From positions 1 through 48,863 of the forward strand of contig JAICIN010000002.1 of assembly GCA_025924375.1 (NCBI GenBank): a stretch of DNA of 48,863 nucleotides, written 5' to 3'. Origin of the DNA: Dermatophilaceae bacterium (GTDB lineage: Bacteria; Actinomycetota; Actinomycetes; Actinomycetales; Dermatophilaceae). The notes beneath the pieces are model-generated. The model ran no database searches, was not told the DNA's origin, and worked only from the letters and a program-made list of their open reading frames with translations. Both the position numbers and the translations under genes were made by a program. Shown here piece after piece: positions 11,514-44,513 of the stretch; the stretch's first letter is position 1, and each line of letters starts with the position of its first letter.

Positions 11514-12245
11514 TCAGGCGACGTGCGGCGCCGGGTAGAGGACCTGGCGACGACCGCCGCGGTCGACGGGAGGACGGCGCCCGGGGCGCGGCCACTCGAC
11601 GGGCCGGGCGGGGTCGACGTCACTCTCGGCGAGCATCGTGCCCAGGCGGTCGACGGCGTCGACGCCGAACACCGGGCCGTCGTGGAGCACCAGGACGGGT
11701 ACCACCTCGTGCTCGAGGTCGTGCCACTCACCACGCCAGTCGCGCACCAGCCGCCAGCCGGTCGTCGTCATCGGCCCACCGGTGACGTCGACCGCGTGGC
11801 CCCAGCGGCGCAGGGGGTCGCTCGTCGAAGAGCCCGACATCACCGCCTCGGCGAGCAGTGTGCGGACCGTCCTGGGGTCGGAGATGTCGACGCCGTGGCG
11901 CCAGAACGCCTCGAAGATTACCGGCGCGGCGACGTCCGCGACGTTGGCGCCGTGGCACTCGGCGTAACCGGAGATCGCCGCCCGCGTGTGCGGGACGAAC
12001 CCGGCGAGGGTGTAGGGCAGGTCCTCGTCGGGGAGCAGGTGCGAGACGACCTTGTCCATCTCGCTCTGGAGGGCGGTGAGCTCGTCGCGTCCACCGCGTG
12101 GTGAGCCCGGGTGCCACGGGTCGTGCTCGACGGCCCGCAGCTCGAACCGCTGGCCGCCGGTGCCGAGCATGGCGAGCCGGCGGTAGGACAGGTAGCTCCA
12201 CGGGCAGCTGAAGTCGCCGTAGAGCACGGCTGGTCTTCCCGTCAC
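11514..12245 (-). CDS. DsbA-family (2-hydroxychromene-2-carboxylate isomerase/FrnE-like) protein
   Basis: PAVLYGDFSCPWSYLSYRRLAML... thioredoxin-like fold start; GTG start overlapping the upstream gene by 4 bp. Confidence 0.75.
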   Translation of the reverse strand: MTGRPAVLYGDFSCPWSYLSYRRLAMLGTGGQRFELRAVEHDPWHPGSPRGGRDELTALQSEMDKVVSHLLPDEDLPYTLAGFVPHTRAAISGYAECHGANVADVAAPVIFEAFWRHGVDISDPRTVRTLLAEAVMSGSSTSDPLRRWGHAVDVTGGPMTTTGWRLVRDWRGEWHDLEHEVVPVLVLHDGPVFGVDAVDRLGTMLAESDVDPARPVEWPRPGRRPPVDRGGRRQVLYPAPHVA

Positions 12246-12475
12246 GATGCGGGCTCGGTGCGTCCGATGCGGATGCGCCAGGTCTCGGGGCCCTGCTCGA
12301 GTGGCTCCCACTCGAAGCGGCCGGGCTGCTCCGCGGCGAGCTGGTAGTAGAGCGGCTTGGGGTCGTGGTCGTTGACGAGCTCGAAGGACTCGCCCGGCTC
12401 GAGCGCCCCGTAGGTCTCGAAGATCAGCTGGTGGCGTCGGGCCGGGGCCTCGGTGCGGACGTCGAGGACGGTCAT
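12242..12475 (-). CDS. DUF2249 domain protein
   Basis: VLDVRTEAPARRHQLIFETYGALEPGESFELVNDHDPKPLYYQLAAEQPGRFEWEPLEQGPETWRIRIGR; RBS aaggag upstream. Confidence 0.9.
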   Translation of the reverse strand: MTVLDVRTEAPARRHQLIFETYGALEPGESFELVNDHDPKPLYYQLAAEQPGRFEWEPLEQGPETWRIRIGRTEPAS

Positions 12476-12502: not shown

Positions 12503-12525
12503 TTTTCACAAACTTTTGGTGAAAA
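12503..12525. promoter_or_regulatory. Inverted repeat TTTTCAC-N9-GTGAAAA, candidate operator
   Basis: ttttcacaaacttttggtgaaaa, 28-50 bp upstream of the DUF2249 start; AT-rich island in very GC-rich DNA. Confidence 0.6.
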
Positions 12526-12529
12526 CGAT

Positions 12530-12736
12530 AGTCCTCGGCCGGTTCCCGACTGCGTCAGGGGAGTCTTCGGACTCCTCGGCCGGCTCCCGCCTGCTGCAGC
12601 GGGGTCTTCGGACTCCCCGGCCGGTTCTGGTCGGTCAGTGAGTCCGAAGACTCGGCTGGGCACCGCTCTGGTCGGTCAGTGAGTCCGAAGACTCGGCTGG
12701 GCACCGCTCTGGTCGGTCAGGAAGTCCGAAGACTCG
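12530..12736. repeat. Array of five hairpins based on GAGTC-TTCG-GACTC, ~41 bp period, two in one orientation and three in the other
   Basis: Cores at 12561-12574, 12602-12615, 12640-12653, 12681-12694 and 12722-12735; 41-bp unit gagtccgaagactcggctgggcaccgctctggtcggtcagt repeated perfectly. Confidence 0.9.
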
Positions 12737-12757
12737 GCCACGTGGCAGTCGGGCCGG

Positions 12758-15046
12758 TCAGCGGGAGGGGCGGAACCCCCGCAGCCGCAGGCTGTTGGTC
12801 ACGACGAAGACCGACGAGAACGCCATCGCGGCACCGGCCAGCATCGGGTTGAGCATCCCGGCTGCCGCCAGGGGGATCGCTGCCACGTTGTAGGCGAACG
12901 CCCAGAACAGGTTGCCCTTGATGACGGCCAGCGTCCGGCGCGAGAGCCGGATCGCGTCCGCCGCGACCCGCAGGTCGCCCCGGACCAGCGTGAGGTCGCT
13001 CGCCTCGATGGCGACGTCCGTGCCGGTGCCGAGGGCGAGGCCGAGGTCCGCCTGCGCGAGCGCGGCGGCGTCGTTGACGCCGTCGCCGACCATGGCGACG
13101 ACGCGGCCCTCGCCCTGGAGGCGCCGGACGACGTCCACCTTGTCCTGCGGCATGACCTCCGCCACCACCTCGTCGATGCCCACCTCGCGGGCCACCTCGC
13201 CGGCGGCCGCGGCGTTGTCGCCGGTCAGCAGGATGGGCGTCAGCCCGAGGTCGCGCAGGTCGCGCACCGCCTCGGCGGAGGTCTCCTTGACGGTGTCCGA
13301 GACGGCCAGCACGCCACGGGCGGTACCGTCCCAGGCGACGGCGACCGCGGTGGCGCCGCGCTGTTGCGCCGACTCCAAGGCGGTTGCGAGCTCGTCGGGG
13401 AGCGCGACCGACCAGTCGGCGAGGAGCCGCGGACGACCGAGGACGACGGCGTGCCCGTCGACGACGCCGTGGACCCCCAGGCCCGCGTCGTTGGCGAAGC
13501 CCTCCGCGGGTGGCAGCGCTGCGCCCAGCCGGGACCGGGCGCCTTCGGCGACGGCCGCCGCCACCGGGTGCTCGGACGCGGCCTCGAGCGCCCCGGCGAG
13601 GCGGAGCACCTCCGCAGGGTCCTCTCCCGGAGCGGGGACCACGTCCACGAGCGACATCCGGCCCGTCGTGACCGTGCCGGTCTTGTCGAGCACGACGGTG
13701 TCGACCGCCCGGGTCGACTCGAGGACCTCGGGCCCACGGATGAGGATGCCGAGCTGCGCACCCCGGCCGGTGCCCACCATGAGGGCGGTGGGTGTGGCGA
13801 GCCCGAGGGCGCAGGGGCAGGCGACGATGAGGACGGACACGGCGGCGGTGAACGCGGCCGACCAGCCGCCGCCCGCGACGAGCCAGCCCACCAGGGTGGC
13901 CAGCGCGAGGACGATGACGACGGGCACGAAGACGCCGGAGATCCGGTCGGCGAGCCGCTGCACCTGCGCCTTGCCGCTCTGGGCCTCCTCGACCAGCCGG
14001 GCCATCTGCGCCAGCTGCGTGTCGGCGCCGACCCGCGTCGCGCGCACGACCAGCCGGCCACCGGCATTGACGGTGCCGCCCGTCACGTCATCACCGGCGC
14101 CGACCTCCACGGGCACCGACTCGCCCGTCACCATCGAGGCGTCGACCGCCGAGACGCCGTCCTCGACGACGCCGTCGGTCGCGATCCGCTCACCGGGCCG
14201 CACGACGAAGCGGTCGCCGACCACCAGGCGCTCCACCGGCACCCGCTCCTCGACCCCCGGGCCACCGTCCGGCCCGGGCCGCAGCACCGAGGCCTCCTTG
14301 GCCCCGAGCTCCAGCAGCGCACGCAGCGCCGCACCGGCGGCGCGCTTGGAGCGCGCCTCGAGGTAGCGCCCGGCGAGGAGGAAGGTCGTCACCCCGGCCG
14401 CGGCCTCGAGGTAGATGTTTCCCGCGCCGTCGCTGCGCGCGATCGTGAGCTCGAAGGGGTGCCGCATGCCCGGCATACCGGCGGTGCCGAGGAAGAGCGC
14501 GTAGAGGGACCACCCGAACGCCGCCAGGGTCCCCACCGAGACGAGGGTGTCCATCGTCGTGGCCCGGTGGCGGAGGTTGGTCCACGCCGCCCGGTGGAAC
14601 GGCAGTCCGCCCCACACCACGACGGGCGCTGCGAGCGCGAGCGAGGCCCACTGCCAGTAGCGGAACTGCAGCGCGGGGACCATCGCCATCGCGACGACCG
14701 GGGCGCTGAGCACGGCGGAGACGACCAGCCGCTCCCGCCATGCCCGGGTGCGCTCGTCCTCGGGCGACGCAGCGGCCTCCTCGGGGGTGTCGCCTCGGGG
14801 CGCGGTCGGCTCAGGTGCCGGCCTCGCGGTGTAGCCCGTGCGCGTCACCGTCTCGACCAGCTCGCCGGGCGTCACGCCGGCGGGGAAGCTGACGTGCGCC
14901 TTCTCGGTCGCGTAGTTCACGGTGGCCGTGACGCCGTCGATCTTGTTGAGCTTCTTCTCGATCCGCGCGGCGCACGAGGCGCAGGTCATGCCCCCGATGA
15001 GCAGCTCGACCTGGCCGCCGGCGTCGGCCCGGGCGCCGGCGCTCAT
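12758..15046 (-). CDS. copA: Heavy-metal (Cu+) translocating P1B-type ATPase
   Basis: HMA motif [51 protein letters not shown]. Confidence 0.96.
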
Positions 15047-36165: not shown

Positions 36166-36210
36166 GCCTCGACGTTACGGGCGCCGTCGCAGGCATGGCT
36201 AGTTACCGGG

Positions 36211-36260
36211 CGGTTCGGGTATGCCGGGTGCCCGGCGGTTCGGGTATGCCGGGTGCCCGG
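36211..36260. repeat. Perfect tandem duplication of a 25-bp unit cggttcgggtatgccgggtgcccgg
   Basis: Two adjacent identical copies (36211-36235 and 36236-36260) between the desaturase and ABC permease genes. Confidence 0.95.
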
Positions 36261-36264
36261 CCGG

Positions 36265-44283: not shown

Positions 44284-44355
44284 GCGCCGAGTCTGGCACG
44301 GCGGTATGCCGGGCGGGCGAGGGCCGCGCCTGGCGCCGGGGGTGGGCGACCCCGG

Positions 44356-44482
44356 GAACTTTCGGCCACTCGCCCGAGAGTTCCGGGCGGGGGTCGGGCG
44401 CGGGCGTGAACTTTCGGCCACTCGCCCGAGACTTCCGGTCGGGGGGCGAGCGCGGGCGGCAACTTTCGGCCACTCGCCCGAG
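44356..44482. repeat. Tandem repeat of GAACTTTCGGCCACTCGCCCGAG, 2.5 copies, 52-53 bp unit, hairpin-forming
   Basis: Cores at 44356-44378, 44408-44430 and 44461-44482; GGAACTTTCGG pairs with CCGAGAGTTCC. Confidence 0.9.
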
Positions 44483-44513
44483 CGTTGGCGAGTCCTTGCC
44501 GCCGTGGGCCGGT

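Follow-up and report, generated by a model that had tools for sequence, protein, structure and literature searches.

The array of inverted repeats at the 3' end of copA is one locally multiplied copy out of a dispersed palindrome family, whose members are 48 bp long and consist of two inverted 23-bp half-sites with a 3-4 nt centre. It lies in the window, i.e. the whole stretch of 48,863 bases that was analysed, between copA (P-type ATPase, 12758-15046, minus strand, Pfam E1-E2_ATPase, Hydrolase and HMA) and the first gene downstream of the array, a DUF2249 gene (12242-12475, minus strand, PF10006, E 2.6e-30). The five cores of the original prediction were recovered at the positions and spacings it gave: GTCTTCGGAC starts at 12563(+), 12604(+), 12642(-), 12683(-) and 12724(-), with start-to-start distances of 41, 38, 41 and 41 bp. 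These are the only matches in the window, far above the chance expectation of 0.23, and no shuffle reaches five. TRF and a repeat finder resolve the region into two arrays of 41-bp period, at 12532-12624 and 12626-12738, and the orientation changes from one to the other. Note that the repeated core is longer than first noted, i.e. (A)GTCTTCGGAC-N6/7-RCCGGT (21-23 bp; the spacing between GGA and CCGG is constant), and that the 38-bp step, the apparent orientation switch, is the centre of one single 48-bp inverted repeat. This central palindrome, GTCTTCGGACTCCCCGGCCGGTTCTGGTCGGTCAGTGAGTCCGAAGAC (12604-12651, no strand assigned), is a founder-type element, and its geometry recurs at 10 other places of the source genome and in a related genus, g32. 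The covariance-model matches at 12595-12660 and 12600-12655 fall on it, the copy having been part of the training set.

The left arm of the central palindrome constitutes a half-site at 12603-12625 (plus strand, 0 mismatches to GTCTTCGGA-N7-RCCGG), and the right arm one at 12630-12652 (minus strand, 1 mismatch). Outside 12604-12651 there are one further left-hand and two further right-hand arm copies in 41-bp steps. The left-hand one, at 12562-12584 (plus strand, 0 mismatches), combines the A motif GTCTTCGGAC with the B motif GGCCGG; the right-hand ones are at 12671-12693 (minus strand, 1 mismatch, 41 bp from the right arm) and at 12712-12734 (minus strand, 1 mismatch, a further 41 bp away). 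The 41-bp register continues into CCGG half-motifs on both sides, with CGGCCGG near 12535-12541 and GGGCCGGTCAG, which ends at the stop codon of copA. These motifs belong to outermost partial half-sites that have the B motif only, at 12532-12545 (plus strand, direct-repeat family D3, spacing 41) and at 12749-12761 (minus strand; it overlaps the stop codon of copA and is the third member of direct-repeat family D1, which ends at 12761), and the repeats begin and end in register at 12532 and 12761.

The predicted fold of the array is more stable than that of shuffled sequences for either strand (z = -4.7 for the copA strand, -6.0 for the opposite one). The C(UUCG)G tetraloop, at first thought to be the conserved unit, did not survive closer inspection: in the predicted fold of the 48-bp palindrome the TTCG is within the stem, and the loop is approximately CAGG. 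The corresponding position in g32 is usually TTTG, and several left-arm units of sister arrays (e.g. C157, C127) are without the 5-bp stem and close at most a 3-bp TTCG hairpin, so both the tetraloop unit and a UUCG hairpin per unit were rejected. A CRISPR array was rejected as well, since here the spacers repeat within the array and the orientation reverses, whereas CRISPR arrays have identical direct repeats with unique spacers. Several other features of the window may be mentioned in passing. An inverted repeat TTTTCAC-N9-GTGAAAA (12503-12525) lies just left of the array and upstream of the DUF2249 gene, and might be an operator or a promoter element. A second family of dispersed repeats has three 52-bp units with GAACTTTCGGCCACTCGCCCGAGAGTTC-like inverted repeats at 44353-44486 and further copies on contigs C142, C102, C1, C111, C16, C14 and C4. 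There is also an Rfam ASdes match (RF01781, 35774-35841, 54.8 bits, well above the gathering score) and a perfect 25-bp tandem duplication, GGCGGTTCGGGTATGCCGGGTGCCC, at 36209-36261.

BLAST, pattern search and the covariance model located 11 palindromes in ten clusters on nine contigs of the 2.44-Mb source assembly, and all but a few of the further half-sites also fall in these ten clusters. Other copies of the repeat are thus present in the source genome, which removes one half of what was to speak against the original prediction, and its idea of a repeat family expanded in tandem stands, in a different form from the tetraloop reading. The clusters follow a common plan: n forward half-sites, one fixed centre and m reverse half-sites. 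E. coli BIMEs are mosaics of palindromic units in alternating orientation; the arrays are likewise mosaics of palindromic units, but here the units point one way per side, towards one fixed palindromic centre. By our own count 21 of 27 outward steps in the source-genome arrays are 40-42 bp long, and the 18-20 bp spacers between half-sites are alike within an array and unlike between arrays. Exact source-type half-sites number 27 in the source genome, and none of 149 family genomes has more than two. Simple slippage, one of the mechanisms suggested at the outset, does not on its own account for the fixed 48-bp centre, the 40-42 bp period in unrelated arrays and the species-specific arms. A broader version of this idea is that old palindromes, functionless or structural, were homogenised by gene conversion or break repair, while replication slippage produced the tandem half-sites. 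The spacer pattern would agree with this, the outward steps of constant size in independent arrays would not, and for this and further reasons given below we regard the explanation as improbable.

The strict source-type palindrome pattern was not found in any other relative from the family or the order, and across 85,462 named species it gave one isolated match (an Anaerotruncus contig) that we take as chance; plasmids and phages searched for the palindrome gave no match. The covariance model matched hyuA of g32 at the same linker as in the source genome, with other arms and the same geometry. A generic pattern, GTCTT-N14-GGTCAGGACC-N14-AAGAC, occurs only in the source genome and g32 among 189 family genomes (the reversed control gave zero). 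A combined model, R2, detected single 48-bp palindromes in 10 of 11 g32 species (3 to 44 both-strand matches), and outside the source genome and g32 it gave only three single matches in an order sample of 395 genomes. For g32, 80 loci with 85 copies were fetched. The copA orthologue of one g32 genome, G154 (77% protein identity), is followed by a single 48-bp palindrome that starts about 3 bp after the stop codon. The hyuA linker site is common to the source genome, G031, G094, G147 and G204; in all five it is inside the open reading frame, and hyuA linkers with a palindrome are longer than those of most relatives without one. The Rickettsia palindromic elements, which are among the CGTC repeats (PMC3733652), are a comparable case of palindromes in protein-coding genes (48 bp correspond to 16 codons here), although the bacteria and the sequences are unrelated and the palindromes described here are mostly intergenic. 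The HyuA tree did not resolve whether the source genome and g32 are sisters, therefore common descent of the shared sites is not proven. Two g32 loci, L231 (about 1949-2013) and L204 (about 2008-2065), possibly represent the onset of half-site duplication beside single palindromes, and three loci of G120 (L207, L208 and L248) carry a divergent subfamily, intermediate between the g32 and the source types, whose ends are GTGTTCGG or TTGTTCGG.

The conserved features of the palindromes are the ends GTCTTTG/CAAAGAC, more generally (G/A)GTCTT(T/C)G ... C(A/G)AAGAC(T/C), the CAGG-like centre, the 48-bp length and the complementarity of the arms; the outer 10-11 bp are the most conserved part of each arm. 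Across species 13 of 22 pairs changed on both sides, a kind of count that relatedness inflates, and the covariation score is 0.428 as compared to 0.205 for shuffled data. In g32, on average 11.6 of the 13 variable pairs are Watson-Crick pairs, and this number drops to 9.2 if arms are swapped within species and to 6.6 if they are swapped between species. Among the 11 palindromes of the source genome itself no covariation above shuffles was detected, and extended pairing of their flanks is weak (p 0.04 in register, 0.28 as duplex energy). The folds also look stabler on one contig strand; this strand polarity was dropped because orientation and arm type disagree in C2.

In some species both arms were replaced in concert at fixed sites. 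Copies within a species are close to each other in G147, G154 and G031, where their mean distance is 5-8 of 48. For G154, most comparisons with an orthologous copy give a distance of 15-21, as large as for non-orthologous copies. The DNA that flanks the orthologous sites still aligns at about 75-90%, yet the arms are fully replaced. The replacement is not uniform: in G094, G204 and G120 orthologues are often closer (7-13) and the families are mixed. Palindromes are break-prone sequences, and this, together with the full replacement of arms between similar flanks, is what gene conversion or break repair would lead one to expect. The same process would hardly keep the 48-bp length and the GTCTT(T/C)G ends constant across copies whose arms are otherwise different, nor would it explain why the same gene family is repeatedly flanked by palindromes (see below).

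Most copies are found at gene ends. By our reading of the open reading frames, the source-genome clusters lie between five convergent gene pairs and two co-directional ones (copA/DUF2249 and C29c), in one divergent gap (C29a/b) and upstream of a response regulator (C127), and C95 is a single palindrome within the hyuA reading frame. In g32, according to our gene caller, 33 copies are in convergent, 35 in co-directional and 10 in divergent gaps, and 7 are inside genes; the background gaps of the same loci are 12 convergent, 62 co-directional and 37 divergent. Convergent gaps are thus favoured (33 of 78 intergenic copies vs 12 of 111 background gaps, Fisher p 7.5e-7) and divergent gaps avoided (10 of 78 vs 37 of 111, p 0.001). 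The median distance of the g32 copies from stop codons is 20-24 bp, and in 27 of 35 co-directional pairs it is the stop codon of the upstream gene that is nearer. The REP-like position behind genes that had been suggested for the array is supported by this placement.

Such a distribution could be that of a bidirectional terminator or an mRNA 3'-end hairpin, in which the folded palindrome stops the polymerase or blocks 3' exonucleases and extra arms add strength. A rho-independent terminator would have a stable hairpin at the 3' end of the transcript; here a predicted hairpin lies at the 3' position of genes, and the single palindromes have very stable predicted folds (-27 to -50 kcal/mol), as does the array with its low z-scores. 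The terminator part of the original prediction agrees with the 3'-end bias in this respect, but no T-tract follows any g32 copy examined (168 of 170 sides have at most 3 T in 8 nt), no terminator-like site was found within the array of the window, and the copies in hyuA are inside an open gene in the source genome, G031, G094, G147 and G204. Some copies, including C29a/b in the source genome, lie between divergent genes. A terminator would moreover not need a common genome-wide arm sequence, yet the arms are homogenised within species. The palindrome is not a canonical intrinsic terminator, and we consider a primary role in termination or 3'-end protection rather unlikely. For copA itself, an additional role of the array as a strong 3' hairpin is probable, which would be a side effect.

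A gene that is repeatedly associated with the palindromes offers another clue. Four genomes have an AbiEi-like gene with a palindrome or array on either side, the two lying about 1.1 kb from each other: the source genome (arrays C29a/b and C29c), G094, G147 and G206, with spacings of 1.08 and 1.12 kb in G094 and G147 and of 1.10 kb in G206. No other listed pair of g32 palindromes is closer than 3 kb. The orthologues of G094 and G147 have the same neighbours on their two sides, which we read as an inositol-monophosphatase-like gene and a glycosyltransferase; in G206 the gene and its palindromes sit between other genes, one of them radical-SAM-like. In all four genomes a palindrome is upstream of the gene, while most family members are elsewhere. 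The protein matches AbiEi_4 and, weakly, AbiEi_1, DUF559 and REase_MTES_1575, and PADLOC gives an AbiEi match (E 3e-20). It has an AbiEi winged helix and a nuclease-like C-terminus, to which the weak DUF559/REase_MTES_1575 matches belong at a score below the Pfam cut-off, and it has an invariant C-terminal segment, EVDGRLGHE...DRV.D..RDR, with ExD and DxxRD residues. A separate observation in the source genome is that two complete palindromes are present 187 bp apart on the same side of the gene (L023 5115-5410, G000:C29:16114-16409).

It is instructive to compare the palindromes with the REPs and REPINs that form REPtrons with RAYT genes (PMC3116915, PMC3733652). Both are short, dispersed, mainly extragenic inverted doublets that can form long hairpins, with compensatory changes in the arms, species-specific sequences, a bias to gene ends in convergent and co-directional placement, occasional copies within genes and a linked gene with copies on both sides. 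A miniature mobile element of the REP/REPIN type, moved in trans by a RAYT/IS200-type Y1 transposase, would share all of these traits. The ends, however, have no GTAG or CGTC tag, Y1_Tnp (PF01797) was not found in the source genome (84% complete), the copy number is about 10-22 per genome as opposed to over 100, and the flanking gene is AbiEi-like, not a RAYT. The palindromes are a variant of dispersed palindromic repeats and are not REPs by tags or transposase; movement by a transposase of this type seems to us a poor prospect.

The likeness to the operator of the AbiE type IV toxin-antitoxin system is of a different kind. The AbiEi operator consists of two inverted 23-bp sites 3 bp apart, each bound by one protein; AbiEi is thought to be monomeric, with its winged helix on the outer ~11 bp of each half-site (PMC3985639). 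The layout here is about 23-4-23 as compared to 23-3-23, the outer ~11 bp are the most conserved, a palindrome lies upstream of an AbiEi-like gene, and half-sites appear usable singly. Unlike the AbiEi box, the palindromes are scattered, with about 10-22 copies in a genome, for the most part at gene ends and also downstream of the gene, and their G+C-rich sequence is specific to the species. In the protein a nuclease-like tail takes the place of the normal AbiEi tail, and the neighbours seen are not the AbiEii toxin. AbiEi proteins normally act at promoters and not at gene ends, which counts against a direct transfer of the AbiEi model. So does the absence of the gene from the fetched loci of five genomes that carry the palindrome family (G154, G031, G204, G120 and G137), although the gene was seen only in loci fetched for palindromes and unflanked homologues would be missed.

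The AbiEi-like layout (23-4-23 with conserved outer 10-11 bp) and the single tandem half-sites, which would suit a protein that binds one half-site at a time, lead us to favour AbiEi-like binding sites. We therefore propose, tentatively and at something short of an even chance, that the dispersed palindromes are candidate binding sites of the AbiEi-like protein, spread and homogenised with its help, and that half-sites were later multiplied. Each 23-bp half-site would be one half of an AbiEi-box-like operator for a winged-helix protein with a nuclease-like C-terminus, and sharing this trans-acting partner would be the reason why the palindromes of a genome are retained and homogenised. The gene and its two flanking palindromes might move together as a small unit, much like a REPtron but lacking a tyrosine transposase. 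In the source lineage single half-sites would then have multiplied outward in 41-bp steps, a period that about four helical turns could explain. A more far-reaching version, which we think possible and on balance doubtful, is a selfish system in which the AbiEi-like winged-helix protein with its DUF559/Vsr-like nuclease recognises the palindromes and cuts non-matching ones, so that matching copies overwrite them, the gene with its two palindromes being an autonomous mobile unit. If this were true, the arms of all copies in a genome would change in step, and the copies would keep their sites.

Until now, dispersed palindromes of bacteria have been linked to RAYT transposases or have remained without a partner. 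The present family combines strict complementarity of the arms, a turnover that is concerted within species while the sites are conserved, and linkage to a gene with relatives that bind inverted pairs of 23-bp sites, therefore the question of how such repeats are homogenised can be tested with one protein and a handful of sites. The outcome would also have a bearing on those AbiEi-like proteins that have no obvious toxin partner.
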